Positions 1-55,417 of a DNA stretch of 64,000 bases are shown here, one piece after another (position 1 is the first letter of the stretch; each line of letters begins with the position of its first letter). The stretch is taken from NCBI RefSeq assembly GCF_943192995.1, contig NZ_CALPCP010000013.1, positions 1 to 64,000 on the forward strand, in the 5' to 3' direction. This DNA comes from Flintibacter muris (GTDB lineage: Bacteria > Bacillota > Clostridia > Oscillospirales > Oscillospiraceae). The translations under genes and the position numbers were made by a program. The notes under the pieces are model-generated. The model did no database searches. It was not told the origin of the DNA and saw nothing but the letters and a program-made list of their open reading frames with translations.

Positions 1-62
1 GGGCCTATACTTGGATTTTTACCCCCAATTTCGATTGCATATTGCGTTTGACGGGCCTTTAA

Positions 63-22525: not shown

Positions 22526-22957
22526 TTATTCAATACCGTTTTCCTGATTTGTGGAACGAAAATCCTCTTGTGTTCCTTCATTTAAATCAAAACACATAGT
22601 TTTAGCGTCAGAAACCCAAAAGCCCCGTACCCGATATCGTTTTCCTGGAACCCATCCCTCTCCAACGACACTGCGTAAGGGATCCAACAAGTTTTTATTG
22701 CCGATTGTAACAACTCCCTTTTGTTCATTCTTAGGTTTGGAGAATTTAAACGCCTTGGACTCACTGCTTTTGCAGGCGCGTATTGCGAATACCTTTGCTT
22801 TCGGGTCGAGCAAACAGAGTACATATGCCGGATAGCCTAGATATTCAATTACTTTTTTTGTAAATGTGACCCCGTTTTGATTAATGAATAAATCCGGATA
22901 AGCGTTTACATTAGCGTCGATTGTTTCAAAGTTCAAAGCGGAAAAATCAAAATTCAT
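22526..22957 (-). CDS. hypothetical protein coupled to the serine recombinase
   Basis: A 143-residue soluble protein with no domain I recognise. It has an alpha/beta look (TKKVIEYLGYPAYVLCLLDP, AFKFSKPKNEQKGVVTIGN). Its start overlaps the recombinase stop by 4 bp (ATGA), so it is expressed with it. That arrangement suggests an accessory such as a directionality factor or element-maintenance protein; this is inference from position only. Confidence 0.65.
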   Translation of the reverse strand: MNFDFSALNFETIDANVNAYPDLFINQNGVTFTKKVIEYLGYPAYVLCLLDPKAKVFAIRACKSSESKAFKFSKPKNEQKGVVTIGNKNLLDPLRSVVGEGWVPGKRYRVRGFWVSDAKTMCFDLNEGTQEDFRSTNQENGIE

Positions 22958-24174
22958 ACTTGTGCCTGCCTTTCGAGTTTAGGATCGGATACTTCTCCAA
23001 TTATTTTTAAAAATTCTTTGCGGTCATCATAATTCCAGCGCTTATCCAGCACAAAATATCCCTTAAAGAGTCCGTCTTTTATACGTGTTGCTACTATGCG
23101 GCTCCCCAACCGCCGGAGTTTTGATGTTCTCTTTACTGTCTGATGTAGAGAAAGAATTTCCTGCACTTTGTTCCAATCATTTTTCTTAATAATTGCATCG
23201 TGATGGTTTTCCTTAAAATACTTATTTAAATCGACATTCTTCACCGATTTATGTGTACGAAAATCCTTTGTATATGTCTTTTGCATTAGCGCGTCGCCAC
23301 AATATTTCTCATTAAGCAGAATACTTCTGACGGTTCCAGGTGACCAATGATCACGCCCCATTGGAGATCTAATTTGCTGTTCTGTTAGAGCAGCTGCAAT
23401 TTCAGTGGCAGTCGCCCCTTCTAAACAACTGTCGTAAATATACTCTACAATTTTTGCTTCAGTTGGCTCTATAACCAGCCGTCCAAAATGGTCACGATAA
23501 TATCCGAGTGTATTATGTACAGAAAACTTATAGACACCGTCTGCCATTCGCCATCGGATACCGGCCTTGATTGCTTCGCTCTTTTGCTGCGACTCAAGCT
23601 CTGCCAACGCGGACAGGATCGCAATTAGAAGGTTGTTATTGCTATCACCGGTAGAGGTAATGCCCTCTGTTTCAAAAGAAACCGTTACTGGTGGATTCAG
23701 GCTGGACAGAATGCGAAGATTATCAAGAATGTCAACAATATTTCTGCCAAATCGGTTAATGCCCTTTGTGAGTATGAGATCAATTCGTCCGTCCACGGCG
23801 TCCGATATCATTTTTTGAAATCCCAACCGTTTATTGACAGAAGTACCGCTTATTCCTTCGTCTTGGTATATTTCAACCAATTCCCACATTGGATTGCTTT
23901 CGATTTTCTTTCTGTAATGGGATATCTGCATTTCAAAGCTGCCCAGCTGCTGTTCTTCCTGCGTACTCACCCGGCAATACGCGGCCACTCGCAGTTTGGG
24001 CGATTCCTGCGCCAAGGGCTCTTTTTTAGGCGGTGGAATTACAATTACACCATTGCCGCCGCGATTTCGAGCAATTTCTTCCTGTAATCTGCGTCTCTCC
24101 TGCTCTCTGCGCTCCGCTTTGCTGTTCGTTCTCCTTGCGGATTCTATTTTGTCTGAATCCAGCAGTTTGGCCAT
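22954..24174 (-). CDS. large serine recombinase
   Basis: A 406-residue site-specific recombinase. A charged coiled N-terminal extension of about 60 residues precedes the resolvase domain: RVAAYCRVSTQEEQQLGSFE with catalytic Ser70, YQDEGISGTS, and LILTKGINRFGRN with active-site arginines. The recombinase domain follows (HNTLGYYRDHFGRLVIEPTE, IRSPMGRDHWSPGTVRSILL). It integrates or excises DNA by a double-strand break with a 2-bp overlap. ATG 24174 follows GGAGATGGAG. It sits immediately beside an interrupted methyltransferase start, suggesting its own insertion site. The 406-residue length is shorter than many phage integrases. Confidence 0.92.
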   Translation of the reverse strand: MAKLLDSDKIESARRTNSKAERREQERRRLQEEIARNRGGNGVIVIPPPKKEPLAQESPKLRVAAYCRVSTQEEQQLGSFEMQISHYRKKIESNPMWELVEIYQDEGISGTSVNKRLGFQKMISDAVDGRIDLILTKGINRFGRNIVDILDNLRILSSLNPPVTVSFETEGITSTGDSNNNLLIAILSALAELESQQKSEAIKAGIRWRMADGVYKFSVHNTLGYYRDHFGRLVIEPTEAKIVEYIYDSCLEGATATEIAAALTEQQIRSPMGRDHWSPGTVRSILLNEKYCGDALMQKTYTKDFRTHKSVKNVDLNKYFKENHHDAIIKKNDWNKVQEILSLHQTVKRTSKLRRLGSRIVATRIKDGLFKGYFVLDKRWNYDDRKEFLKIIGEVSDPKLERQAQV

Positions 24175-24211
24175 ACTCCATCTCCTTATAAACGAACAAC
24201 AATGACATATT

Positions 24212-24316
24212 TCAATAGGACAGCCAAAAGGTCTGGCTGTGGTCTTTCTCGTAGCCTTTGCCCCGCCAATCGGCGGCAAACTGTTTTGCGGCAGCGTGGC
24301 GCTGTGTGTCTGTCAT
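24212..24316 (-). pseudogene. 5' fragment of a MmeI-like DNA methyltransferase, interrupted
   Basis: ATG 24316, with GGGAG upstream, opens 34 codons that match the usual N-terminus of large class-I DNA methyltransferase / type IIL enzymes (AAKQFAADWRGKGYEK then SQTFWLS). After FWLS, where such proteins continue with LLRDV, the frame reads one codon and stops. The recombinase gene begins 38 bp beyond. The break therefore looks like the element-chromosome junction near 24217. The 3' part of the methyltransferase is not seen in this window. Confidence 0.6.
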
Positions 24317-24451: not shown

Positions 24452-24554
24452 TTTCTTTGCTTTTGGAGGTTAGGTATTGCTTGAGAATTCCACCTCACCT
24501 TCAGAATCGGCCCGTTCAGGGCCGTTTTGCATCTTCTTCACGTTATTTCGAAAT
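24452..24554. repeat. left member of a direct repeat flanking an IS fragment
   Basis: Begins TTTTCTTTGCTTTTGGAGG, contains CTTCAGAATCGGCC and the hairpin CGGCCC-gttca-GGGCCG, and ends TTCACGTTATTT. It aligns with 24987-25097 over its full length in the same orientation, with substitutions that keep the hairpin. Confidence 0.75.
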
Positions 24555-24566
24555 GTGGTTATCCCT

Positions 24567-24902
24567 TTAACTCAGCCGGACAGAGGTGCCGACAGCAAGG
24601 GACAGGCGCTCCAGCAAAGCGCCATCAAAGTTGCGGCGGCTGAAGCGGAAGCAATATTCGTCCAGATAGGACTGTAAATTGTCTTTTGGCAGACCATGAT
24701 AGGCACCCAGGATGAACGCTTTTGTGTTGCTGATCACGATGTGCAGCCAGTGAAGCAGGCCGGAGTTAGGATCATAGGGACTGTGCTCATGGGTGTACCC
24801 CTCCAATGCTGGAATATAGCTGCGGTAACCGTCGCTCCGGATCGTGCTGCCCACAGCGAATGAGGACTGGGCAAATTTCTTATATGTGTTTCGGTATGCC
24901 AT
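24567..24902 (-). pseudogene. IS1595-type transposase, C-terminal fragment
   Basis: The frame encodes 111 residues matching the C-terminal third of IS1595-family transposases: STIRSDGYRSYIPALEGYTH, PNSGLLHWLHIVISNTKAFI (DDE-type core with the Asn/His segment), LPKDNLQSYLDEYCFRFSRR. The zinc-ribbon N-terminus and first catalytic Asp are missing. Oddly, an ATG at 24902 has a perfect AGGAGG upstream, so a short protein might be made. A terminator precedes it. Direct repeats flank it on both sides. Confidence 0.75.
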
Positions 24903-24938
24903 ATTGGTTTTCCTCCTGAGTAAGATGGGAAACAAAAA

Positions 24939-24984
24939 ACCGCCCCTGGCCCATCGGATTACTTCCAACAGGTCAGGGGCGGTT
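24939..24984 (-). terminator. terminator upstream of the transposase fragment
   Basis: Minus-strand arms AACCGCCCCTG and CAGGGGCGGTT, with a 24-nt loop, are followed by TTTTTTG. It would stop transcripts arriving from the tRNA side. Confidence 0.65.
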
Positions 24985-24986
24985 GG

Positions 24987-25097
24987 TTTTCTTTGCTTTT
25001 TGGAGGTTTTGAGCATCACTCGAGAGTTCGACCCCCTCCAGCTTCAGAATCGGCCAATTTCGGGCCGATTTGCATCTTTTTCACGTTATTTTAAAAT
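24987..25097. repeat. right member of the direct repeat flanking the IS fragment
   Basis: Shares the start TTTTCTTTGCTTTTTGGAGG, the core CTTCAGAATCGGCC, a hairpin with arms ATCGGCC and GGCCGAT, and the end TTCACGTTATTTTAAAAT with the left copy at 24452-24554. It lies between the IS fragment and the tRNA gene. Confidence 0.75.
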
Positions 25098-25222: not shown

Positions 25223-25299
25223 TGGTACGGGCGAAGGGATTCGAACCCCCGACCTACTGGTTCGTAGCCAGTCACTCTATCCAACTGAGCTACGCCCGC
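25223..25299 (-). tRNA. tRNA-Arg (anticodon ACG)
   Basis: A 77-nt cloverleaf with encoded CCA. The acceptor GCGGGCG pairs with CGCCCGT, the D-arm begins GCTCAGTTGG, and the anticodon loop CTACGAA sits in the stem ACTGG/CCAGT. The T-arm is GGGGGTTCGAATCCC-like, and discriminator A is followed by CCA. ACG (modified to ICG) reads CGU, CGC and CGA. It has its own promoter and terminator. tRNA genes are common integration targets, and the mobile debris on its left fits that. Confidence 0.95.
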
Positions 25300-25910: not shown

Positions 25911-27242
25911 CTATATCAGCGACAGCAACGTCTCGGGGATGTCATCAACCGACACCCAGATCGGATAAAACCCATAACGGGCCCAGTAGTTTTCTTTCAT
26001 ATAGAGCAGTTTTCTGAGGAGCATGAGCGTATCCCTCCGGATGTTCTCGGCAGTGGTGCCCTTGGAAAGGTGGCTGCGGCAAATGCTCATCCAGATATCC
26101 TTGACAAGCTCATTGATCGTCAGGATCAGGTAGTGCCTGGGCCCATTGGTCCTCCGCGCACCGGGGGTATCCATCTGCCGCAAAATCCGCCGGAAATTAT
26201 AATCGTCTGCGGAAAATCCCACGAAAACGCAGCTGTTTCGATTCAGATAGTAGGACTGTATGCTGTTCTGCCAGTTATAAGCCTCATAGCGTTCTGTGTC
26301 ATAGTAACTGTCCTCCGACAGGATGATACTCCGGGATTCCCGGAGGAAGGTGAGGTCGGGATCCTGTCGGCTTTCCCTTCTGGGTATGCACCCATGGACA
26401 TGGAAAATATGAATCGGGTCCTTGGACTTTTTTGCGCATTTACCGCTCCACTCCCCCGGATGGGAGATAATCCGCCCTGGCGGAACATCAAACAGCTTGA
26501 TCAAATACTCCTCGACCAAGGTGTCAAAGTTGTAGGTCAGCGCACACCGGAATCCATTTTTAGCCCGCAGGAGGTAGGCGGCAGCGCACAGGGATTCGCT
26601 GCGTGCCAAAGCCAAGAGTTTTTCCTCCCGGTTCAGCGCACCGGAGGCCTGGTCCGGGTGCTCAGCCTCCCAGTTTTTCAAAAAATCCTGGGGCTTTGTG
26701 CTGTCCTCTACGATGACAGAAACGATCTCTTTAATCAATTCCTCTCCCGATCTTCTCTGTCCGGGCTTTCCCAGAGTCTGCGCGATATATTGCCCGGACT
26801 CCAGTACATTGATCCCGCTGAACAAGGTAAGCTCTTTCGAGATCAGCTCCTGCTCCAGCCTGGACAGCCGCCTGTGGTCGGTCTCATCGGCGTCCGGCTT
26901 GTCCCTCTGGTTCTTATAGTCATAGTACTTCATCGCGTGGCCGGCCATCTGCGAGACCAACCCCTGCCAGGTGGGCATCTTCATCGGGATGCTGATCCCG
27001 GCGCCGAGGACCAGCGCGGTCTGGCCTGACTTCATCGTCTGGCGGATCTCCTGAAGATAGTTCTCCTGCTGCTCCATATGCCGCCCCAGCAGGTCTTTTA
27101 CCAAAGGCACATCAATACACGCACCGCAGCCAGCCGGGAATTCCCTCCAGTCTTTCCCGGTAAATCCGCAGTAACAGCTCTTGTCCGGAGCCTGGACCAG
27201 GCGTTTGCAGTCCAGCCGCTCAGGTGCTTTCGTCAAAGCCAT
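25911..27242 (-). CDS. SIR2-family (SIR2_2-like) defence-type protein
   Basis: A 443-residue protein. Residues 74-90 hold the Rossmann nucleotide loop ALVLGAGISIPMKMPTWQGL. TYNFDTLVEEYL (236-247) gives the Asn/Asp of the active site, HVHG (281-284) the catalytic His, and a late FVGFSADDYNFRRIL a family-typical segment. In defence systems such domains degrade NAD+ on phage sensing and cause abortive infection. The N-terminus is unusual, with cysteines at 12, 23, 25, 39 and 42 that may bind zinc. It overlaps the upstream large gene by 23 bp, so the two form one unit. The ATG at 27242 is very close to its GGAGG; a TTG two codons in would be better spaced. Confidence 0.85.
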   Translation of the reverse strand: MALTKAPERLDCKRLVQAPDKSCYCGFTGKDWREFPAGCGACIDVPLVKDLLGRHMEQQENYLQEIRQTMKSGQTALVLGAGISIPMKMPTWQGLVSQMAGHAMKYYDYKNQRDKPDADETDHRRLSRLEQELISKELTLFSGINVLESGQYIAQTLGKPGQRRSGEELIKEIVSVIVEDSTKPQDFLKNWEAEHPDQASGALNREEKLLALARSESLCAAAYLLRAKNGFRCALTYNFDTLVEEYLIKLFDVPPGRIISHPGEWSGKCAKKSKDPIHIFHVHGCIPRRESRQDPDLTFLRESRSIILSEDSYYDTERYEAYNWQNSIQSYYLNRNSCVFVGFSADDYNFRRILRQMDTPGARRTNGPRHYLILTINELVKDIWMSICRSHLSKGTTAENIRRDTLMLLRKLLYMKENYWARYGFYPIWVSVDDIPETLLSLI

Positions 27243-30216
27243 TCACCTCCCCTATTGAAATCAGGCTGGAAAACATTTGGACTACCCCATCGCTGTCCAC
27301 ATTACCATCCAGCAGACGGATCCGCTTAAAGGCACGCTGATACAGCTTCATACCGTCATGCTGGGCGCTGTTATAGTCATTTTGACACAGGCGCAGATAT
27401 GCCTCCAGGGGTTCCGCCACCCATTCGCAGTGTTGACGATATGTCCGCAGAAGGAGATCTATTTGATTGGCGACATCCTCATATTTAAGGCGCTTTTCCG
27501 GCATCTGATGCCTGCCTAGATTTTCAACGGCGGCCTTCAGCTCTTTCCGGACCGCCTGGGTAAGGGCAGTCTTCTCATCGTTTATGGCGTCGGGAAAACA
27601 GACCCTCAGTACGGAGGAGATCCGAAAGACGTGTGGGGCATCCCTGGGCAGCGAGACCAACACATTCCACTCCTCAAAAACGAAGGCTAAGATGTAATCC
27701 ACCGGCGATGCATCCAACCGCATGCACGCTTCAAGGTCGGCAAAGGTCTCACTGTAGCAGTTGAATACCAGCTGTTCCAGGATATTGCCCAAATTGCAGT
27801 CGCCAAAAACTCCAATCTGGTCCTGCCGGGGCGGCTGACAGAGCGAGTCCATTAACAGCTGATTGAGGATCGCCACAATAAACCGTCTCAGGTCCTGGGC
27901 CCTGAACTCCCCCGTGCTGTCGAACCAGTCAAGGTAACTTGCCAGCCGCCGCCGTTCCACAGCGCAGAAGGTCAGGCTTTTCTCCGCCGCCTGCAGGATA
28001 TCATTGCAGCGGTCGTAAAAACGGACAGCGGTATTCAGCATCTCGCGGTACAGGACCGCTACCAACTCACTGTAGGGGTAGCGGTTTTCCAGGGGGCCGT
28101 CGGTTTTGCGGTACCAGAGGAATTGCCTGGACAGCTCCTCCTGAAGCCACTGCATCAGATCCGCACTCATATAATTTCTCTCGTCCCAGCAGAAGCGGGC
28201 ACTGTCCTGGCAGCATCGCTGGCCTAAAATGTTTTGCAAGGCCTTTGCAACCGCCTCGCACAGCCCCTGAACCTCGCCCGCCCAGCAGGCCCTGATCTCG
28301 CTGCTTAAGCTGTCATCCTCCACCTGAAATGTGGATTTCAGGCAGGAAATCATAGATTCACAGTAATCCTGCTCAGAAAAAAGCGAATAGGCCAAAAACC
28401 GTCCGAAGTAGCGAGCGGTAAAATCAAGGATGTAATCAACCCGATCCTTTCTGCGCCTGTTTCCACAGTAGTGCATGCACTCATGCGTCATGCGAAGCAC
28501 CGCGCCGCCGCAGTCAAACAGAGCCATCTCCGACATGTGGGTAATCAGGGGCATATTCTCAACCAAATCCTCTCGCGCTCCTTGCTTACCGCGAGATACC
28601 CTGCGTACATCCGGCTCAAGGTCGGAGAAAATATTGTTTGTATGGGTGTGGTCACAGCCGCCGCTGCAAACAAGAAAGGCGTAGCGGGAAACTTTATTTG
28701 CCTCCTCATCCAAAACATCCTCGACAAACTTGTTCTGCCACCGATTGTAGGCCAGCAGCAGGGCGGTAGCGGAGCTCACAGACGCATGGTTATACCGCTC
28801 GTTCTCCATGGAAAAGCAGTCTGAGCGGGACAGGTCGGCGAGAAAACTTCCCACCTGAGACACAAAGATTTCCAGCGCTTCCTCGATCCGCTCCCACTGC
28901 TCATTCATCTTCTCGTCCAGTTCTTCGCGCTTCGCATCATCCCTCTCCTGCTCCAGGTCCTGCTTGATAAGCGCCACCGCTTCCAGTCCTCGATCCAGGC
29001 TGTTGGTAAAGGCAAGCAGCCATTGATCCATAATTTTCTTCAGCGCACGGTTGTGGGGCTGCCGGCAGATATTTTCAATGGCAGTCACCCGTTCCCATGT
29101 GGCGCTGAAAAGCCGCATATGCCTGTTTGTCTCGTCCAGAAGCTTCCAGTACTTAATCAAGACATCTCGCAATTTTGTTATTCTCTGATTCCGTGGATTG
29201 GGTGCGGAAAATTTAGCCCATTTTTGTGTTTCCGCCGTATAGCTCACCGAGCGCTGGAGGGTTGACTCTGTGCTGATCACCAGATTTTTGATCTTACCCG
29301 TCCCTTTCTTGTGGTCCGCCATAACCATACGCAGCAATTCGCTGAAATCCTGTCCCTCCTTTGAGTTCAGCAGACAATCTGACGAGCCGGAAAGCTGATA
29401 GACATCAGCAAAATCCCCCACACGGCGCCGCAGCTCACCTATAGGTGTGCCAGGCTTCATATGGACGCGCATGGACAGACGAATCCCCTGCCGATGCCCA
29501 TCGCTGCAGATGGGGCGTTCCGGTCTTTTGGGGCAAATATGATAGACCGGCATAACATAATCGGTGGAAAGTATCGCCTTGCCTTCAGACACTGCGCGGT
29601 GCAGATATTCAATCAGCACCGGCGCAAACGACCAGTCCTTCTCCGCCAGCAGAATGCAGTAGTCGGAATATCCCAGGCTCGGTAAAATACATAAATGGAT
29701 ATCTTCTGTCCCGGCCTGTGCAAAGGAAACCGGAATCTCATCCTGAACCCCTTGGGGAAGATACTTGCCGTCTCGGATTATCTGGGCAAACCGCTCCAGC
29801 TGTTCCCCGCATACGTCCTGGGGCCATCGCCCCTTAAAATCATCGGTCAGGTTGACCAGCGCCACAGTGACGCAGGGATAACGGTCCAGAAGCGCGGATA
29901 TATTTCCCTGCCAGCTCTGATAATCCAGGCCGCAGTCCTCCAAACGCCCGATCATTTTCGAGGCAGGAAAGAGCAGTTTAATCGGATAGCCGCTCAACGG
30001 GTAGGAGGGTATGCTCTGCTTTTCGGTCTTGGAATTTCTGCTGTCAAACCGAATAGCAGAGGCCCCGGGGGAAAAACCCAGCCAATATTTAACCGGTTGA
30101 AATGTAATCCGGTCAAAGTATCCTAAAATGTAGTCGTCCCCATGGTGCGGTGCCCACAAAATATCCTTTTCCAGCTTAATCGTTATACCGCAAGGTTTTG
30201 TGTTATGATCTCCCAT
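27220..30216 (-). CDS. large protein with HExxH motif, partner of the SIR2 protein
   Basis: A 998-residue cytoplasmic protein with no family I can name. It contains one zinc-protease motif, HECMH at 578-582, within GGAVLRMTHECMHYCG, preceded by a possible metal-binding CSGGCDHTH at 517-525. The N-terminal 200 residues have two similar-looking segments, YILGYFDRI at 30 and LGYSDYCILL at 181, hinting at a duplicated sensor fold. Residues 340-510 are helical and charged, likely coiled coil. ATG 30216 follows AGAGG. It begins just after a terminator, so it heads a two-gene operon with SIR2. The architecture (large sensor plus NADase-like effector) suggests anti-phage defence, with the protease as sensor or regulator; this is inference. 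Confidence 0.75.
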   Translation of the reverse strand: MGDHNTKPCGITIKLEKDILWAPHHGDDYILGYFDRITFQPVKYWLGFSPGASAIRFDSRNSKTEKQSIPSYPLSGYPIKLLFPASKMIGRLEDCGLDYQSWQGNISALLDRYPCVTVALVNLTDDFKGRWPQDVCGEQLERFAQIIRDGKYLPQGVQDEIPVSFAQAGTEDIHLCILPSLGYSDYCILLAEKDWSFAPVLIEYLHRAVSEGKAILSTDYVMPVYHICPKRPERPICSDGHRQGIRLSMRVHMKPGTPIGELRRRVGDFADVYQLSGSSDCLLNSKEGQDFSELLRMVMADHKKGTGKIKNLVISTESTLQRSVSYTAETQKWAKFSAPNPRNQRITKLRDVLIKYWKLLDETNRHMRLFSATWERVTAIENICRQPHNRALKKIMDQWLLAFTNSLDRGLEAVALIKQDLEQERDDAKREELDEKMNEQWERIEEALEIFVSQVGSFLADLSRSDCFSMENERYNHASVSSATALLLAYNRWQNKFVEDVLDEEANKVSRYAFLVCSGGCDHTHTNNIFSDLEPDVRRVSRGKQGAREDLVENMPLITHMSEMALFDCGGAVLRMTHECMHYCGNRRRKDRVDYILDFTARYFGRFLAYSLFSEQDYCESMISCLKSTFQVEDDSLSSEIRACWAGEVQGLCEAVAKALQNILGQRCCQDSARFCWDERNYMSADLMQWLQEELSRQFLWYRKTDGPLENRYPYSELVAVLYREMLNTAVRFYDRCNDILQAAEKSLTFCAVERRRLASYLDWFDSTGEFRAQDLRRFIVAILNQLLMDSLCQPPRQDQIGVFGDCNLGNILEQLVFNCYSETFADLEACMRLDASPVDYILAFVFEEWNVLVSLPRDAPHVFRISSVLRVCFPDAINDEKTALTQAVRKELKAAVENLGRHQMPEKRLKYEDVANQIDLLLRTYRQHCEWVAEPLEAYLRLCQNDYNSAQHDGMKLYQRAFKRIRLLDGNVDSDGVVQMFSSLISIGEVNGFDEST

Positions 30217-30268: not shown

Positions 30269-30301
30269 GAGCCCCCGCGAAACAAAATTTCGCAGGGGCT
30301 C
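30269..30301 (-). terminator. terminator of the small peptide gene
   Basis: Minus-strand arms GAGCCCCTGCGAAA and TTTCGCGGGGGCTC (one mismatch, 5-nt loop) are followed by TTTTAT. It separates the peptide gene from the HExxH/SIR2 operon. Confidence 0.85.
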
Positions 30302-30306
30302 GGTTA

Positions 30307-30513
30307 TTAAGGACGTTTCCCGGGGGGGGCCACACGTGACAGTCCTCCAAAGGAGGCATGAGGTCCGTCCAAATCAATTCCAGGCCCACCCAAAGAAACA
30401 TCGGGGGGGCCTATCTTGACTGTGGTTTTTTCAACCGTGCCATAGAAGGATGACACGCCGCGAGACCCTTTCGCCTTCCGATCGGCAAAACGATTCTGCT
30501 TAAATCCAGGCAT
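30307..30513 (-). CDS. 68-residue Gly/Pro-rich small peptide, unknown
   Basis: ATG 30513 has GGAAAGG 8 nt upstream. The first 35 residues are basic (MPGFKQNRFADRKAKGSRG). The rest is a repetitive Gly/Pro/Asp stretch with PPDVSLGGPGIDLDGPHASF and ends VAPPGKRP. There is no transmembrane helix and no cysteine. It has its own promoter, a leader of about 280 nt and its own terminator, so it is an independent unit between two defence operons. A basic leader followed by a Gly-rich core resembles modified-peptide precursors, but no modification enzyme is visible. It may instead belong to the SIR2/HExxH system or be a small toxin. Confidence 0.55.
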   Translation of the reverse strand: MPGFKQNRFADRKAKGSRGVSSFYGTVEKTTVKIGPPDVSLGGPGIDLDGPHASFGGLSRVAPPGKRP

Positions 30514-30797
30514 GATAATCACCTTTCCAATGGAATCAGCAAGCGGTCCTCTTTGCGACCCATTTCAATTCACATTGAACGTCTTGTGCTTTGCACGGTT
30601 CAGTACTTGCAATCTACCTTCAATTTCATTGAAGTTCCCCCGGATTGCAACGTACTTCCGCCGCATTAAATAGTAGTGGACCGTAATTTGGCTCCCGTGC
30701 CTCTGTAAAGGTAATTCCCTTTACAGATCGATAAAACACTCATGCCTGGTTTTCCAAGCACTGTAAATGTTTTTCGCTTGACGGCGCAAGATCGTTC
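30514..30797 (-). ncRNA. long structured leader or small RNA upstream of the peptide gene
   Basis: About 284 nt of predicted transcript precede the peptide start. It folds locally into CTGTAAAGG/CCTTTACAG (30703-30726), CTTCAAT/ATTGAAG (30618-30634), TTCAAT/ATTGAA (30564-30579) and a GTGC/GCAC stem. The second and third share the same arm sequence about 50 nt apart. No known riboswitch consensus was recognised. It could be a cis-regulator, an independent RNA or a set of operator palindromes. Confidence 0.4.
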
Positions 30798-30803
30798 CTA
30801 AAT

Positions 30804-30833
30804 ATTTTACCACAGGGAGCCTACATTTTGCAA
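30804..30833 (-). promoter_or_regulatory. promoter of the leader / peptide transcript
   Basis: Minus-strand TTGCAA (30833-30828) and TAAAAT (30809-30804) are spaced by 18 nt in AT-rich DNA. Transcription would start near 30797. Confidence 0.5.
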
Positions 30834-31217: not shown

Positions 31218-32375
31218 TCAAGATTTCTCTTCGGTCAGGCCTTTTATCTCCATGTCGATGTCGTGAGTCAGCTTTCCCAGGGGGCGCCGGCCCCATTGGG
31301 CCTGGTCGATGTCCATCAGATACATCATGGTCTTCACGTCCTGGAGTGTGTGAAAGGCATCTGGAAACATGCTGCACAGGGTTTGCAGATACTCGCTGCT
31401 GAACACGTAATTTTTCCAAAACAGGTATAAAATATAATCCTTATGTTTGTTGTAAAGAGGTACCAGCTGAAACAAATCCTTGGAGGCCTCAACCCTGTCC
31501 CGCAGCTTTTCCGGAAGACCTCCGTCCACAGTATCCAGCGTCACACTGAATTCCTCCTGTGTGTCTTGACAGCCTGTCAGGTAGCGCAGGCTTTTCTCCG
31601 GCCTGGTGCGGAATACCACCCTTGTCCCCATCTGGTCCGAATAGGGGTACAGCACCTCCTCATCCCGGTCTCCCTTACTCTGGTTGCACAGGCCGCAGGA
31701 GGGAATCAGGTTCATGAGGGAAACGGCGAAATACGGGTATTTCGATTGGCTCTTGTAGTGGTCGAACTGCGGTCTGGACGTTCCCTCCCCCTCCGTCAAG
31801 GTCACAGTGTACAGCCGGTTACAGTAGGGGCACACGTTGACATCCATATATTCCAGCAGCTTCGCCGCCAGGGGATTGCTGGAAAAGTCCTTGTAGCGGA
31901 ACACCTCGTTTAGAAGCTTCTGAACGGATTCTTTTTTCTGGATTGCCCCAATCATTCTCAGCGCCTGGGGCAGCTCGTCCATTTTCACCGTCAGCAGCGT
32001 CCGCAGATTGCCTCGCCGGACCGCAGGCCCGCCCCCCGCCGTGTACAAATACCAGTACAGCTCCGGGCTGGCTTTCCAGATCAGTTTCGCGGCCAGCAGA
32101 CGGTCCTGCGCCAGCCGCTCCTCCTTGGAGTCCGCCGGGCCTGCGATGTGGTACTTCTTCAACAGCTTCAGATATTTTTTGGTCCGCATTCGGGCTCTTT
32201 TCCCGGATTTCTTCAAAAAATCTTCGGGTGCTATCGTAATTCCTCTCACATGCAATACCCGGCCATCCAGGACATCTTCCGGATCAAATGGCAGCACATA
32301 TGCTGCCAGATATAAATAGCAGTCCAGAATCGCATCTCCCCGGGGGTGCTCTTTATAGGTCAAAATCCGTATCAT
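31218..32375 (-). CDS. HNH endonuclease, PtuB-like
   Basis: A 385-residue nuclease. The HNH fold is clear: CPYCNR (182-187) starts a zinc knuckle, FDHYK (204-208) carries the catalytic His, NLIPSCGLCNQSKGD supplies Asn222 and the second CxxC (227-230). An N-terminal helical region of 170 residues and a C-terminal helical region surround it. ATG 32375 lies within the last codons of the ATPase gene (23-bp overlap), so the pair is coupled. In Septu systems the PtuA ATPase controls a PtuB HNH nuclease that cuts phage or host nucleic acid; this pair has the same layout. The longer open frame upstream has no ribosome site. Confidence 0.85.
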   Translation of the reverse strand: MIRILTYKEHPRGDAILDCYLYLAAYVLPFDPEDVLDGRVLHVRGITIAPEDFLKKSGKRARMRTKKYLKLLKKYHIAGPADSKEERLAQDRLLAAKLIWKASPELYWYLYTAGGGPAVRRGNLRTLLTVKMDELPQALRMIGAIQKKESVQKLLNEVFRYKDFSSNPLAAKLLEYMDVNVCPYCNRLYTVTLTEGEGTSRPQFDHYKSQSKYPYFAVSLMNLIPSCGLCNQSKGDRDEEVLYPYSDQMGTRVVFRTRPEKSLRYLTGCQDTQEEFSVTLDTVDGGLPEKLRDRVEASKDLFQLVPLYNKHKDYILYLFWKNYVFSSEYLQTLCSMFPDAFHTLQDVKTMMYLMDIDQAQWGRRPLGKLTHDIDMEIKGLTEEKS

Positions 32376-34440
32376 GCTTCCTCCTGTCCCGTTCCTGCCT
32401 GAGCCGGCAGTATTCCCGCTCCAGCTCCTCGTCCGAAAGCCGGCGGACCCGGTCATCCCTCCTGCGCCACGGCAGCTTCTGCTCCAGCTCCTCAATCCAC
32501 AGCAGCGCCTTCCGGCGGATGATCGGCTCCGCGATCAGCTCCGCGCAGGGGCGGTACCGGTGCTCCAGCAAATAGCCAAGCTCCTCCGTCTGCCCCTTTG
32601 AATTGGACGCCAGAGCGGCCTCCACTCCTTTCAGATCCTCAAAAAGGCGGTCGATCTTGCGCCGGGCAAAGCGCCCGATGGTACCGTTTTTCAGGAAAAA
32701 GCTGTCCCGAAACAGGAGGTGGATGTTCTGCCCAAAGGTCCCTCCATGGGCGGACTCGTCCACAACAGCGCAATGGCGCTCCGGGTCCAGCTTTAAGTAG
32801 ATCACGTTCTGCTGTGGGACGTCGCTCAGCAAAATCGGTGAATGGGTGGAAAGTATGATCTGAATATCCTGGCAGCACTGCGGGGGATATATCCGGGGCA
32901 GGAACGCTGTCAGCAGGTCAATCAGTTCCAACTGCCAGTCGGGATGATAGGTCAGGTCTGCCTCGTCAATGAGCAGGATAACGCTGTCACACACAACAGC
33001 TTGATCATTCCGGAATTTGTTGATAATACGGTAATCTTCAGCCTTGGAGCTGGCGTAATCTTCCCCGAAGATATAGTAGAGGGACGCAAACAGGCTGAGC
33101 AGGCTGTTTTCCCCGCTGCTGAGCCCCCAGTGGAAATCCAGAAAATAATCCGGCTCACAAATCCGGCGGTATTTTTCCAAAAACTCCATAAACCACTCTG
33201 TATCCGTTGCATCAACGAAAAAAGTGATAGATGTGCGCTCCGTGTCCAGATGAAACGTGCCCCATAACTTCGTTTCAAGCCTGAAATGCTCTTCCAGCTT
33301 CTCATTCCCAATAAATTGCAAAAATTTCAGGCAATGCTCCTTCAGTGTCTTCCATTCTATAGCGAAGCAATTCATGATAGAATCAATTTCTACCCACGCT
33401 TCTTCCACCGTTCCACTGTAATGAACCGCACTCGGTTCCCATTCTGCAAGCAGCTTCTGGAGCCTGACCTTCTCTATGTCATCCATCCCGTTTGCCGCAC
33501 TTCTGACTGCGCACCAGATAGCGCACCGTTTTAACTGCTCTCTCAAAAGAATATACCCATAATTTGAGATTGGGTCTGTCCTGCGGTTTAGCTCCTTGTC
33601 CCGGGGTGGATACAGTTCAGAAAATAACAGTTCATCAATCTTCCACGCCGAAAAATCGTTGTCATCATAATAATCGTTCGTATCCAGCGCGGAGGACAAA
33701 CGGTTGTCCAGCAGCAGGTCAATATAGAGCCTCTCCGGCACAGGCATCGGATAGCCCTCCTCCTTTAGTCCAACACATGTCTGGCGCTGGCGCTTATCGA
33801 AGACAAATTTGATCTGCTTGTACTGCTCATACAAAAGGTAGGATTCCAATTCCAATGAACCGGAGCGCGAGGCCTGATTTACATCCTTGTCAGCGTCAGA
33901 CACGAGCAGATTTCCCACTGAGCAGTCATAAAGTGGGGCGGACCGGTCGCTGGGATACCACTGGCTTCTCCGGCTGTCCCGCACGGTCAGCGCGTTGGTC
34001 AAATAAATCAGCTTTGTCCTGCCCAAAATACGGCTCACGCTGTCGCGATCCAACCACTTCGGCAGGCTATAGTTCCCAAAGCCCTTCCACTCTCTTACCG
34101 GAGCGACATTCCGCTCCGGATTATAGTACCCAACCAGCTTATCGCCCTCTTGAAAAATCAATATGCCCTCTGCGTCTCCATTCCCGCTACCATGGGCATC
34201 CAGAAAAAGCTCTATAACGGCCTGCATCAGACTCGTTTTCCCCGCGCCGTTGCTGCCCACAACAACACTGAGGCCGCTGATATTCTCTCCCCAAAACCGC
34301 TCCGGGAGGCGGAATTTGGTATCTGACGCAGTAAGCCTGCCGGTCTCTCCATCAAAATGCAGCCGCATCTCCGGGCTAAAATTGAACTCCACTTCACGAA
34401 GATTGCAGTATTTATTGATATACAGATATATTAACCGCAT
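32353..34440 (-). CDS. ABC-type AAA ATPase of a Septu-like defence pair, PtuA-like
   Basis: A 695-residue SMC/ABC-like ATPase. Walker A is VVGSNGAGKTSL at 60-71, the ABC signature is LSSGEN near residue 440, Walker B is VILLIDEADLTYHP, and the H-loop is STHSPILLSD. The central 300 residues are helical, with no transmembrane segments. ATG 34440 has GGGAGGG 6 nt upstream. It is followed directly by an HNH nuclease, the gene order of Septu and of retron-associated PtuAB effectors. No reverse transcriptase is nearby, so a retron is not indicated. It is larger than typical PtuA. Confidence 0.82.
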   Translation of the reverse strand: MRLIYLYINKYCNLREVEFNFSPEMRLHFDGETGRLTASDTKFRLPERFWGENISGLSVVVGSNGAGKTSLMQAVIELFLDAHGSGNGDAEGILIFQEGDKLVGYYNPERNVAPVREWKGFGNYSLPKWLDRDSVSRILGRTKLIYLTNALTVRDSRRSQWYPSDRSAPLYDCSVGNLLVSDADKDVNQASRSGSLELESYLLYEQYKQIKFVFDKRQRQTCVGLKEEGYPMPVPERLYIDLLLDNRLSSALDTNDYYDDNDFSAWKIDELLFSELYPPRDKELNRRTDPISNYGYILLREQLKRCAIWCAVRSAANGMDDIEKVRLQKLLAEWEPSAVHYSGTVEEAWVEIDSIMNCFAIEWKTLKEHCLKFLQFIGNEKLEEHFRLETKLWGTFHLDTERTSITFFVDATDTEWFMEFLEKYRRICEPDYFLDFHWGLSSGENSLLSLFASLYYIFGEDYASSKAEDYRIINKFRNDQAVVCDSVILLIDEADLTYHPDWQLELIDLLTAFLPRIYPPQCCQDIQIILSTHSPILLSDVPQQNVIYLKLDPERHCAVVDESAHGGTFGQNIHLLFRDSFFLKNGTIGRFARRKIDRLFEDLKGVEAALASNSKGQTEELGYLLEHRYRPCAELIAEPIIRRKALLWIEELEQKLPWRRRDDRVRRLSDEELEREYCRLRQERDRRKHDTDFDL

Positions 34441-50316: not shown

Positions 50317-50346
50317 GTGCTTTACCACATATCCATAAACTGTTTC

Positions 50347-53300
50347 TTACTCAGAGAAAGTAACAGTTATGACGGACACATCGGTAGCACCGATAGCGTC
50401 AAAGGTGAATTCCATCTCAGCGGTCGTTCCATCCGTACCAACAGTAAACGCAGTACCCTTGGCAAACTCAGGAATAACAGCCGCATTCGCAAACGTACCA
50501 GCCGCAGCTGCGCCTGTGGCCGAAATGGCGGCCTTCAAATCCTTAGTTCCAACCGTGCCAGCGGTGGTGAACTTCAGAGTGACCTTCAGAGTAGCATCGG
50601 CTTTCACCAGTGTAGCGGCATTCGCAGTCGTTGTAGTAACCTTGTCTCCGTCAGCAACAACCAGAGCCATAATGGGAGTATTGGTGCTAGTGTCGATGGA
50701 GTTGCCGGTGCTCGCTCCGGTCGTTACAGCAGTAACGGTGCTGGCAGTCAGGTTGAAGTAACCCTTATCGCTATTGGTGTTAATGATAGCACCATCCGCA
50801 ACATTGGTAGCAGCGTTGGATACAGCAGCGGTCTTTGTGCCAGTGGTGTCTATATAAACGTAGAGGTTCGCACTGCTGAGGGTCTTACCAGCCGCACTCA
50901 GAACACCAGTGACGGTCTTAGCAACGCTCGTGCCGTCGGCTACGACATCCTTGCCATCGACCTTGACATATATTACCGAGTCAGTGGTCGCGTCGCCGAT
51001 GTTGATCGTGCCAACGTTCAGGCCATTCACTGTCATACCGGTGATATTTCCGTTCAGGTCCTTCACAGCTACAGCTGTATAGTCGGTTTTCGCATTGACC
51101 CACTCAACAGCGAGAGGCACCTTCTGGGCCATCGTGGTCAACGAATCGGCAGCCTTGTCGGTCTGCAGGTTAATAACAGCACCGTCAGCCTTCACCCAAC
51201 CGTGGATGACCTTAGGCACATTGTTCTCAGCCTTCGTGACGATCACGTCGCCCTCAGGCATGGTGAAGAAGTACCCCTTGTTGGCTTCAATAGCGGTTGC
51301 AGAAATCGCCGTATAATTACCCTTGTCGCTCACAGCGAATTCATTGGTAGCAAATCCAACTCCATCTTCGGCAAACTTGACCGCAATAACCTTGTCCTTA
51401 GCAGCCTTCACGGGGAGGTCCTGCCACTTGTCAGCCGCGATGCCGGCGATAGTAGCGGGATTGCTACCGGCATCCAGCACAGCGAACTTGAGGCCAGTTA
51501 CCCCAGAAGCAACCTCAACGTTGTACTCAACAGCGGGAGTGGGAGGCGTGGCAGCCTTCACATTGCCGATCACGATCTTGACGATCTTGCCGCCCTCAGC
51601 CTTAGCGGCAGCCAGGTTAACGGCAGTGTTGCCAGTGGTATCGACAGTCGCACCGCTCGCGGTGGTAGAAGTCATGCCAGTGTAAGTGGCTTTCACAGTA
51701 CCGACGTCCTCATAGCCATCGGGCCTGGTGTACTTGAAGGAGAGGGCAACACCATTGCCGCCGATAGCCAGCTTATCTACCGCAGTGTTACCGGTGCCAT
51801 CCTTAATGTTCGCAGCGTCAATTTCGGTCTCCTTGGTGCCGTCGGTCACATAGTACTCCACAACCGCATACTTCCAAGTGACATTGGTAATCTCAACGGT
51901 GATCTTGTCGCTGGAGCTGACCTGCTCACGATCGAGAGCGGTTTTCAGGTCATTGAGGTTCGCAGAGGCAGTGTACTCCTTCGCGTTAGCGTCGTAAGTG
52001 GCGCTATTGTTGGTGCCCTCAGTCAGCTTATCGCCGTTCACCTTTACAGTGTACTTGAAGGTAACATCTCCCGCAGCACCATTGACGCCATCGGCCCACT
52101 CGGGAGCCTTGAAGGTCACATTCAAGGTGGACGCGTTGGTGAACTTGTTGATTTCCACACTGCCGCTGACAGACTCGATGGGCTCATTCTTGCCGGCGGT
52201 GACACTGCTGCCCGGGGTCTGGCTGCCACTGTTGGTACCGGGCTTCTTGTTGTCGGGAGCCTTGTTCAGGTCGTTGATGATAATGGTGGTAGCGCGGCCA
52301 TTCTCGAAGAGGGCCATAATCTGAACGCTGGCCAGATCGAAGGAGCCGGAATCCTCAGCGTTCATCTCGCGCAGGGCCTGCTCCAGGCCGACATAGCCCT
52401 TGTAGCCGTCGGTGGTGGAGTCGAACCAGTCAGCGCCCTTGCCGTTGCCGTTCTTGCCGGCCAGAGCCAGGACGGTCTTCACGTCGGGATCGACGGAGAA
52501 GCCGCGGGTCTCATTCTTGGCGGTGTACAGGGTGCCGTTCTTGTAGGACAGGCCGTCCACAGTGGTGATGTCCCGCAGAACAACGGTGTTGTACTCGTCG
52601 GTGGAGTCCTCAACGTCCACGACCTCGGCGATCCACTTGGCGATATCGACCGCAGGCCACTTCTTGTCGTTGACGTACTCGACCGCGTCGGCCCGGCGGA
52701 CGTTGCCGCTGGCGTCGTACTTGATCTCATACCACTGGCCCTGAGCCATGTTGCTGGGGTGCAGGTACTCGGGCTGGTCGCCGACCTCTCTCAGGGTGAC
52801 GATCTCGCCGTTGACAACGGCCTTACGCAGCCAGGTCCACTCGCCGTCGCCGGACTTGGTGTCGGAGGTGTGCTTGTAGGACTCCTCCTCCAGGCCGGAG
52901 GTGTGGATGTAGGCGTAGTTGCTGCTGGCGCCCTCGTCCTCACCGATCACAACAGCGGCAATCACAATGCCCTTGTTGTCATACAGGGTGTAGATCTCGG
53001 CGGCGGGATAGGCGTAGCCGCCCTCGCCGGCGCCCAGCTCGGTGGCAATCAGGTTGGCGTTCTTCACGCCGGTGGTGACGGAGTCCACGTCGTCAATGAT
53101 CCACTTGTAGATGCCGCTGGGTCCAAAGTCATCATCCACGGCGACCTTCTCCAGACCCACAGTCAGGTACACGGTGTCGTCGTTGCCGTAGACATAGTCG
53201 CTGGTAGCAGCGGCGGAGGCCTTCAGGGACACGCGCTTGGTGTTGATGGCCTTGGTGTCGTTGCCCTTGGAGTCGGTAGTGCCGTCATTGAACACATCAA

Positions 53301-55347
53301 CGTCCTGAGCGAACTGGCCGATCTTGATGGTGCTGCTGGTGGCGTTGACGGCGGCGGCCACGGGCACCATCTTCAGGGTGTACACACCGTTGTTGTCCAC
53401 GGTGTAGGTGCACCAGGTGTTCAGCTGGGACAGGTTCACAGTCTGGCCAACACCAGTGTTGTGGTACATCAGGCCGTGGTTGGTGTGAGCGGTGCCGTCG
53501 GCGTTGTACTGGCCGCAGCGGCTCTTGCTCAGGTCAATCTTGACGGTCTCCATGGTGCCGTCCAGGTGGATGATGTTGCCGTCAACCTGCTTGGCGTACA
53601 GGTTGCTGGCCCCAGCCTCCAGGCCGGTCAGGAACACGTACTGATCAGGATTCTCGTTGCGCTCCAGGCCGATCAGGTAGCCGTACTCGTCCAGAATGAC
53701 GTTGTAGGTCAGCTCCTTCAGGTTCAGCGCGCCGTCAAAGCTGGTCCAGTTCTCAATGGCCTCCACGTCGTAGCGGGCGGTGGTGGCGTGGTCATACTGC
53801 TGGCCGCCGGTGGTCACGTGGTCAAACAGCTTGAAGGCGTCCACAGTGACAGCGCTGAGAATCTCGGGGGCCTCAATGGTCTGGATTTCGCCGTCAGCCA
53901 CGGTGACCAGGTACAGCTCATCCTTCTTCACATCAGGCACCAGGCTGAAGTCCTCACCCTTGGCGTAGATGTCGCAGAAGTCCTTCTCCTTACCTGTATC
54001 CTCCACCTTGTTCTTCACCTTGTCGGTGGACTTCACAAAGATGGGGGAATCCTTGGTGCCCTTGTTGTCCAGGCGCCAGGTACGCAGCTCTACATCATCA
54101 TTCTTGGCGTCATAGTCCTCGTTGGACTTGGCCAGATAGGTGTTGATGACGGAGATGTAGACCCAGTAGGTGTTGGAGTTGGCGTTGCTCTTGGTAAACT
54201 CGGTATCCACATAGACCTGGGTCAGCACGCCGTTGCCGGTGTTGCCCACAGCGTCCTTGTTGGTACGGTACAGGTCGTCCTTGGTAAAGGCGGCGCTGCC
54301 CAGAATGCCAGAGGCGTTGGTGTCGGGGTTGGTACCCACAATCTGCACGCCGTCGATCTCAATCTGGAAGTTGTAGGTGTCAACGGTGCTCTTGCCCAGC
54401 AGATCGTACAAGGTCTGGCCGGTCACCTTGGCGGTGTAGCTCTCTTTCAGCAGCTCATTCTTCACGTAGGTGCCGATATCCTTGCCCTTGTACTCCCAGC
54501 GGCGGGCGGGGCGGCCAAAGACGTCCCACTCACGGTCAGCAATGGTGCTGCCCTCGCCGTACAGCTTCAGCTCGCCGTTGTACAGCTGCTCGCCCAGCTC
54601 CACAATGGGGGCGTTGTTGGTGGAGCCCATGGAGGTGGCGTTCACGGAGCTGATGGAGGTAGCAAAAGCTTCCCAGCTGGTGACAAAGACGTAGTTGACC
54701 TTGCCGTTGGTGGCAATCACGTTGCCCTCGGAGTCAAAGTAGTTCAGGGTGTTGCCGTCAGGGCGAACCATGCCGCTCTTCAGAGCATTCAGCACCATCT
54801 GAGCCACCTGATTACGGGTCATGGGCTCGGTGGCGCTGGAACCAACGCCCTTGAAGATGCCGATGTTGTTGCCCTGGAGGACGGTGGAGACCTCAAAGCC
54901 GTTGGCGTAGTCGCTCTGGTACTTGAAGTAGCCCAGGGCACGCATCAGCATGGAGGCGGCCTCCACAGCGGTCACAGTGGCGCCGGGATCGTACACGCCG
55001 TCGCCGCGGCCGGACACAATGCCGTTGGCGGCGCAGGCGCCGACCCAGCCCCGGGCCCAGTCGTACACGTCGTCAAAGGGGCAGGTAGCAGTATAGTAGT
55101 TGTAATCCAGGTTCAGCAGCTTGCCCATGACAACCGCCATCTCAGCGCGGTTGACGGAACGCTCAGGGCCAAAGCCCCGCTCGTCGCCGACCATGACTTC
55201 GATGGTCTGCAGAACCTCGATCGCTTCGACGTTGTCAGTTTCGCTGACATCGTCGTAGCCCGCAGCCGCGCTGGAACCGACAACCATCATGCCCAGGAGC
55301 ATGACAGAAGCCAGAGTGAGGCTGAGGGCCCGCTTCAGGTTTCTCAT
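50347..55347 (-). CDS. S-layer-homology-domain surface protein, 1666 residues
   Basis: A large secreted protein with signal peptide (LSLTLASVMLLGMMVVGSSA). It has three SLH repeats in the first 190 residues (YDDVSETDNVEAIEVLQTI, CPFDDVYDWARGWVGACAAN, EPMTRNQVAQMVLNALKSG), which bind pyruvylated wall polysaccharide. The remaining 1450 residues are Thr/Ala/Asp/Val-rich, beta-strand-like, with a Pro/Gly/Ser linker near 1040 and a series of Ig-like modules to the C-terminus. There are few cysteines and no enzyme motif. It is likely the main S-layer or a surface-array protein. AAAGGAGG precedes ATG 55347. Strong codon bias creates an open 5-kb antisense frame. Confidence 0.9.
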   Translation of the reverse strand: MRNLKRALSLTLASVMLLGMMVVGSSAAAGYDDVSETDNVEAIEVLQTIEVMVGDERGFGPERSVNRAEMAVVMGKLLNLDYNYYTATCPFDDVYDWARGWVGACAANGIVSGRGDGVYDPGATVTAVEAASMLMRALGYFKYQSDYANGFEVSTVLQGNNIGIFKGVGSSATEPMTRNQVAQMVLNALKSGMVRPDGNTLNYFDSEGNVIATNGKVNYVFVTSWEAFATSISSVNATSMGSTNNAPIVELGEQLYNGELKLYGEGSTIADREWDVFGRPARRWEYKGKDIGTYVKNELLKESYTAKVTGQTLYDLLGKSTVDTYNFQIEIDGVQIVGTNPDTNASGILGSAAFTKDDLYRTNKDAVGNTGNGVLTQVYVDTEFTKSNANSNTYWVYISVINTYLAKSNEDYDAKNDDVELRTWRLDNKGTKDSPIFVKSTDKVKNKVEDTGKEKDFCDIYAKGEDFSLVPDVKKDELYLVTVADGEIQTIEAPEILSAVTVDAFKLFDHVTTGGQQYDHATTARYDVEAIENWTSFDGALNLKELTYNVILDEYGYLIGLERNENPDQYVFLTGLEAGASNLYAKQVDGNIIHLDGTMETVKIDLSKSRCGQYNADGTAHTNHGLMYHNTGVGQTVNLSQLNTWCTYTVDNNGVYTLKMVPVAAAVNATSSTIKIGQFAQDVDVFNDGTTDSKGNDTKAINTKRVSLKASAAATSDYVYGNDDTVYLTVGLEKVAVDDDFGPSGIYKWIIDDVDSVTTGVKNANLIATELGAGEGGYAYPAAEIYTLYDNKGIVIAAVVIGEDEGASSNYAYIHTSGLEEESYKHTSDTKSGDGEWTWLRKAVVNGEIVTLREVGDQPEYLHPSNMAQGQWYEIKYDASGNVRRADAVEYVNDKKWPAVDIAKWIAEVVDVEDSTDEYNTVVLRDITTVDGLSYKNGTLYTAKNETRGFSVDPDVKTVLALAGKNGNGKGADWFDSTTDGYKGYVGLEQALREMNAEDSGSFDLASVQIMALFENGRATTIIINDLNKAPDNKKPGTNSGSQTPGSSVTAGKNEPIESVSGSVEINKFTNASTLNVTFKAPEWADGVNGAAGDVTFKYTVKVNGDKLTEGTNNSATYDANAKEYTASANLNDLKTALDREQVSSSDKITVEITNVTWKYAVVEYYVTDGTKETEIDAANIKDGTGNTAVDKLAIGGNGVALSFKYTRPDGYEDVGTVKATYTGMTSTTASGATVDTTGNTAVNLAAAKAEGGKIVKIVIGNVKAATPPTPAVEYNVEVASGVTGLKFAVLDAGSNPATIAGIAADKWQDLPVKAAKDKVIAVKFAEDGVGFATNEFAVSDKGNYTAISATAIEANKGYFFTMPEGDVIVTKAENNVPKVIHGWVKADGAVINLQTDKAADSLTTMAQKVPLAVEWVNAKTDYTAVAVKDLNGNITGMTVNGLNVGTINIGDATTDSVIYVKVDGKDVVADGTSVAKTVTGVLSAAGKTLSSANLYVYIDTTGTKTAAVSNAATNVADGAIINTNSDKGYFNLTASTVTAVTTGASTGNSIDTSTNTPIMALVVADGDKVTTTTANAATLVKADATLKVTLKFTTAGTVGTKDLKAAISATGAAAAGTFANAAVIPEFAKGTAFTVGTDGTTAEMEFTFDAIGATDVSVITVTFSE

Positions 55348-55417
55348 TCGGATTTCCTCCTTTAATTTTTTTCGGCCTGAGAGGGGCCGGTCTGGTCAAA
55401 CGCATCCTCGTCCGATC

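Follow-up and report, generated by a model that had tools for sequence, protein, structure and literature searches.

A rare three-gene module pairing a gluzincin-like protein with a SIR2 protein in Flintibacter muris, with the look of a new SIR2-based defence variant

The window analysed here, the whole 64,000-nucleotide (nt) stretch of Flintibacter muris DNA, carries on its minus strand three successive genes, which encode a small protein, a large protein with an HExxH motif and a SIR2-domain protein; the large gene and the SIR2 gene share a 23 bp overlap. The three genes are conserved and coupled among relatives, the large protein bears an HExxH + ExxxD signature, and the module lies in a mobile setting (Table 1). 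It looks like a new variant of SIR2-based defence, outside the catalogued systems searched. A previous sequence-only reading had described two open reading frames (ORFs) overlapping by 23 bp, with HECMH at residue 578 of the large protein, and this description is accurate (HECMH occupies residues 578–582). The two-protein unit it proposed does contain the large protein/SIR2 pair but is incomplete, as a third gene, the small ORF upstream, had been overlooked.

The working set consists of eight strong members, namely the window, L002, G136 (module L006), G275 (module L005), G443, G924, G1013 and G1046, and of six distant members (G1059, G1092, G1051, G1018, G1117 and G1116, with loci L028–L033). 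The G924 module is near-identical to L005, and its sequence lies on two contigs, with the small ORF on one and SIR2 on the other. In all eight strong members, the SIR2 gene lies directly 3′ of the large gene, either overlapping it or at most 3 nt apart. Across the 28 pairs, identities range from 18.7 to 89.5% for the large protein, with all but one pair at 19–51%, and from 24.0 to 90.7% for the SIR2 protein, and the two diverge together (Pearson 0.989, Mantel p 2e-4); with the near-duplicate G924 removed, r is 0.974 and p is 8e-4. The seven strong-member genomes searched contain only 1–3 SIR2_2 genes each, and therefore the adjacency is not a matter of chance. Similarly, a reciprocal SIR2 search of 137 genomes of the order gave two close matches, both of them known pairs, while a third, more distant SIR2 (G039) had no large-gene profile match within 9.2 kb around it. 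The neighbourhood survey called for earlier revealed no strong homologue of the large protein without SIR2.

The genome samples of the different searches overlap, and in all of them the module is infrequent. The protein search of the order found it in 3 of 394 genomes, and profile searches found it in 11 of 400 genomes of the family, self included in both counts, and in 1 of 398 of the phylum, this one being the window's own genome; two other families gave 1/207 and 1/38, each an already known member. The profile search of the class gave 3 of 391, of which one (G571, E 9e-4) was then dropped, as it has four in-frame stops and unrelated ORFs nearby. Even within two genera the distribution is patchy (2/10 and 2/7 genomes, all already known). 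L002, the one named relative, is from the GTDB contigs and belongs to an uncultured Lachnospiraceae metagenome-assembled genome. No homologues of the large protein were found in plasmids, phages or viral contigs, and the SIR2 subfamily was likewise not found in viral contigs; in plasmids, it gave one weak match, from Klebsiella (23.7% identity over 67% of the query), whose listed neighbours include no comparable partner. The module is rare and may well move horizontally.

Table 1. Features of the module and its upstream region in the window.
Feature	Coordinates	Strand	Evidence
SIR2_2-domain protein, 443 amino acids (aa), presumed NADase effector	25911..27242	-	PF13289 match and alignment of 8 homologues
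Large gluzincin-like protein, 998 aa, with HECMH at 578-582 and SETFAD at 822-827 after an N-terminal double ferredoxin barrel and a helical middle	27220..30216	-	
Catalytic region of large protein, residues 470-985, folded alone	27262..28809	-	Predicted local distance difference test (pLDDT) 81.5, predicted template modelling score (pTM) 0.85
Predicted chlorite-dismutase-like double ferredoxin barrel, residues 4-232 of large protein	29521..30207	-	
Terminator-like hairpin, 15 pairs and T-run, between small ORF and large gene	30269..30301	-	z -6.8
Small ORF, 68 aa, ATG start, SSFYGT motif; third component, proposed inhibitor or substrate	30307..30513	-	
Structured leader 5′ of small ORF, possible regulatory RNA	30514..30795	-	z -4.76 vs shuffles; no Rfam match
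Promoter-like site TTGCAA-18-TAAAAT, extended -10, weak candidate	30804..30833	-	5 sites in window vs 4.5 in shuffles

The large protein had been described as unmatched to any named defence family, and no profile library gives it a convincing match; the best matches are at chance level (Pfam E 0.051, NCBIfam 0.12, PHROGs 0.049), and PADLOC gives none. Against the sequences of solved structures, there is no match by sequence and an E of 0.19 by profile; a housekeeping family was also looked for, and none was matched in Pfam or NCBIfam. Among the large proteins scanned, none reaches an NCBIfam cut-off, the best match being KdpD_non_kinase for the L011 protein (E 0.0011). All eight strong members in the alignment keep HExxH and a second motif, E-x-[FY]-[AS]-D, without change, and five of the six distant relatives also have both; the sixth (L028) is without the second motif and seems broken off, its gene apparently, by eye, cut by an insertion. 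With the interrupted L028 omitted, HExxH and E-x-x-x-D are invariant in all 13 aligned catalytic regions. HExxH with a downstream Glu in E-x-x-x-D is a protease signature of the gluzincin type (M48, M1, M13). The catalytic region also gives weak structural matches to these metalloproteases; the large protein differs in having no sequence match to them and in its large unassigned helical regions and N-terminal barrel. The protease idea of the earlier reading thus gains a second conserved motif, and this sequence signature suggests that the large protein is a protease.

The N-terminal segment formerly called duplicated is predicted to be a double ferredoxin barrel with the fold of chlorite dismutase and coproheme decarboxylase (about 4–13% identity in the comparisons given), and it is a conserved extra module of the large protein. 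No His in residues 1–300 is invariant among the eight strong members, so that the conserved proximal His of those enzymes has no evident counterpart and haem binding by the barrel is unlikely. Foldseek comparison with viral structural models gave no match at E 0.001. The CSGGCDHTH stretch, once proposed as a metal site, is not conserved among homologues and was rejected.

The assignment of the SIR2 protein to SIR2_2 is clear (PF13289, E 5.3e-16, 59.4 bits vs a cut-off of 24.5). It carries TYNFD at residues 236–240 and HVHG at 281–284, and the Asn of TYN and the His of HxHG correspond to the catalytic residues of SIR2 enzymes. HxHG is kept in all eight SIR2 homologues; the Asn is found in six of the eight, the window included, while L026 and L027 have TYD. 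The protein is presumed to be an NADase effector. Ahead of the SIR2 domain, a Cys cluster (C12, C23, C25, C39 and C42; 27117-27209, minus strand) may be a zinc knuckle; it occurs in the window, L002 and L006 and is absent from the other five.

An ORF of 61–71 aa lies 5′ of the large gene in all eight strong loci. In a single comparison, the small ORFs of the window and L002 align at 45% across 49 residues, with E 2e-12. Of the 45 pairs that ten small ORFs form, 7 are significant (p < 0.02, 300 shuffles), comprising all six pairs among the window, L002, L026 and L027, which have SFYG in common, together with L005–L024; those of L006 (SSYHG), L011, L029 and L033 show no significant similarity to others in the same shuffles. 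The C-terminal halves diverge, and between L005 and L024 there are 9 synonymous and 9 nonsynonymous codon changes (counts by position 5, 6 and 10), which are uninformative either way. Six of eight loci have an exact TTGACA-16..18-TAnnnT promoter ahead of the small ORF, vs 0.05 expected from shuffles. Six of the eight strong loci also have a hairpin between the small ORF and the large gene (z -6.8 in the window, -5.1 in L011, -3.9 in L026 and L027, -3.1 in L006 and -1.9 in L002); that of L011 lacks a T-run, and L005 and L024 have no clear hairpin. Among the distant relatives, L029 has an ORF of 67 aa and L033 one of 64 aa about 105–120 nt 5′ of the large gene, nothing convincing is seen there in L030–L032, and L028 starts at the contig edge.

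The known SIR2 NADases of phage defence come with an ATPase, a TIR protein, an Argonaute or a fused sensor. The module has in common with Thoeris ThsA, DSR1/DSR2, SIR2-HerA, SIR2-APAZ/pAgo and AVAST a SIR2-type domain as the presumed NADase effector, and it likewise lies near a candidate defence pair; unlike in those systems, SIR2 is here a separate 443-aa protein with metalloprotease-like and small-protein partners. Thoeris combines SIR2 + SLOG with the TIR partner ThsB, but Pfam finds neither TIR nor SLOG in any of the four module-region proteins scanned; ThsA profiles match the SIR2 protein mainly over residues 57–101, and the PADLOC LmuA and ThsA matches are strongest over the N-terminal SIR2 strip. 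DSR1/DSR2 are single proteins of 1000+ aa with an N-terminal SIR2, whereas SIR2 here has 443 aa, and Dsr1 scores 11.4 bits vs a cut-off of 1400. As for SIR2-HerA, SIR2-APAZ and AVAST, neither the large nor the SIR2 protein has a HerA, pAgo/APAZ or STAND match, except that the SIR2 strip weakly matches the PADLOC pAgo-associated SIR2 model (E 0.05). TIR, HerA, PIWI and STAND matches are absent from the proteins scanned with Pfam, PADLOC and NCBIfam, and no PADLOC or NCBIfam system fits the module.

According to PMC3014915, the Lit protease of T4 exclusion is a metalloprotease with HExxH that needs a peptide for its action. HExxH is common to Lit and the large protein; unlike Lit, the protein here is of 1000 aa and has a SIR2 partner, and the Lit family is not among the Pfam matches at E ≤ 1 for the full large protein or the 13 catalytic regions (12 families listed). 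In Sofic/AS1, a defence toxin is held back by a small protein encoded next to it (PMC12249575); unlike here, that toxin is a FIC protein and the small gene lies downstream. For DS2 (DS2_2, DS2_3), a DS2_3-like protein occurs near the distant L029 and L033 only, below the cut-off; the four module-region proteins scanned have no DS2 match, and DS2_2 (294 positions) has none in G000, G1092 and G1116. No SIR2-protease system was recognised in the open literature searched, subscription papers and preprints being mostly outside it, and the zincin or SIR2 passages of PMC3506569, PMC3702460, PMC9503650 and PMC8195603 concern other things.

The likeliest reading, with somewhat less than an even chance, is that of an abortive-infection system of three genes: a protease controls a SIR2 NADase and is itself restrained by the small protein, or cuts it. 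The small protein would be abundant, as it would have a promoter to itself and be partly set apart by the terminator. It would hold in check a large, cytosolic, gluzincin-like metalloprotease whose sensor domain is the ferredoxin barrel, or serve this protease as a decoy substrate. Infection, presumably by phage, would remove, titrate or alter the small protein and so release the protease, which would switch on its SIR2 partner by cleavage or inside a complex; the activated SIR2 enzyme would then deplete NAD+, as SIR2 defence systems do according to passages of PMC10286901. Our confidence is higher for the defence role and for the protease and SIR2 chemistry than for this scheme as a whole, and it is lowest for which component controls which. 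Control of a SIR2 NADase by a metalloprotease partner, with a small protein encoded upstream, would be new, and would make a proteolytic switch for bacterial NAD+ depletion directly testable.

Several observations weigh against this scheme. In the shuffle control, an ORF of at least 55 aa at the place of the small ORF arises by chance at rates of 4–84%; because chance ORFs are common there, the claim of a third gene rests on similarity and promoter, not on the open frame. The exact TTGACA promoter is absent before the small ORF in the window and L002, and promoter-like sites in the window show no excess (5 vs 4.5 in shuffles). Furthermore, on the stretches examined, the large gene lacks a neighbouring SIR2-profile match in all six distant relatives. 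The coupling to SIR2 proposed in the sequence-only reading thus holds for the eight strong loci, where adjacency, co-divergence, patchiness and the want of a PADLOC or NCBIfam fit argue for a candidate defence system, but not for these six.

The distant branch has other neighbours. Upstream of the protease gene, at 0.5 kb in L029 and 1.6 kb in L033, lie genes for homologous proteins (30% identity) that match NCBIfam DS2_3_antiphage with E 1.9e-30 and 6.7e-29 (106 and 101 bits vs a cut-off of 630); the same proteins weakly match Pfam DACNH in both and DAC in L033 (E 1.4e-3, 3.6e-4 and 0.019, below the cut-offs). In L030 and L032, the gene ahead of the large gene seems, by eye, to encode a membrane-bound protein, though the two show no similarity to each other, and the large gene of L031 follows a gene for a 303-aa protein, itself preceded by a membrane-looking one. 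A doubtful wider reading is that of a modular immune platform, with a small-protein-gated gluzincin protease bearing a ferredoxin-barrel sensor as its constant core and with interchangeable partners (the SIR2 NADase in one branch, a DS2_3/DAC-like cyclase-type protein in a second and membrane proteins in a third), where proteolysis would link infection sensing to NAD+ or nucleotide signalling. If true, finding this protease core close to a cyclase-like protein would tie proteolysis to nucleotide signalling.

In the chief rival reading, which we consider unlikely, the roles are reversed: SIR2 would make an NAD-derived nucleotide that binds the barrel, and the protease, as effector, would cleave a protein of the host or phage in the way that Lit cleaves EF-Tu, with the DAC-like protein of the distant relatives doing the same job with another nucleotide. 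The replacement of SIR2 in L029 and L033, as if a constant protease answered exchangeable nucleotide enzymes, and the barrel as a conserved extra module speak for this; however, the DAC/DACNH matches are below Pfam cut-offs, those genes lie at the distances given above, and the reported SIR2 defence proteins work by NAD+ depletion (passages of PMC10286901). An addiction or toxin–antitoxin module on a mobile island, with the small ORF as antitoxin and the protease/SIR2 pair as toxin, without dedicated phage sensing, would account for a small gene in first place, frequently preceded by a separate promoter and followed by a hairpin, and for the mobile context and patchy distribution. The toxins of such modules are usually far smaller than the 1000-aa multidomain partner, and the module adjoins a Septu-like candidate pair, which makes this improbable. 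Gene order and the make-up of the small proteins in the window and L002 would also suit a peptide-maturation cluster, in which the small ORF, GGPG-containing and followed by the hairpin, would be a precursor peptide, with the large protein as leader protease and SIR2 as modifying enzyme; this is very improbable, since the C-terminal halves of the small proteins diverge and no transporter or maturation enzyme was recognised among the listed neighbours, for which no systematic search was made. An ordinary housekeeping or metabolic pair, favoured by nothing beyond both proteins being enzyme-like, is hardly credible given the rarity in order, family and phylum, the mobile setting and the lack of a Pfam or NCBIfam housekeeping match.

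The position beside a Septu-like pair and mobile DNA, pointed out earlier, was borne out. Upstream of the module, an HNH protein and AAA ATPase pair (31218-34440, minus strand) matches the PADLOC candidate system PDC-M62 (Septu-like). A serine recombinase (22954-24279, minus strand) and a tRNA-Arg (25223-25299, minus strand) border the defence genes, possibly at an integration site, and an IS1595-type transposase remnant lies between two 59-nt direct repeats (85% identical, 543 apart; 24496-25097). Between 20000 and 38000, the tRNA alone exceeds the gathering score of an RNA family. Among the relatives, a gene next to the G275 module (L005 6647-7537, minus strand) encodes a protein that matches a response regulator and, weakly, DUF4062, and a 356-aa protein resembling, by eye only, a nucleotide-cyclase type is encoded near the G136 module (L006 2683-3753, minus strand). 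Elsewhere in the window, opposite-strand open frames of 1682 aa (50317-55365, plus strand) and 1666 aa (50347-55347, minus strand) overlap, and only one of them is likely real.
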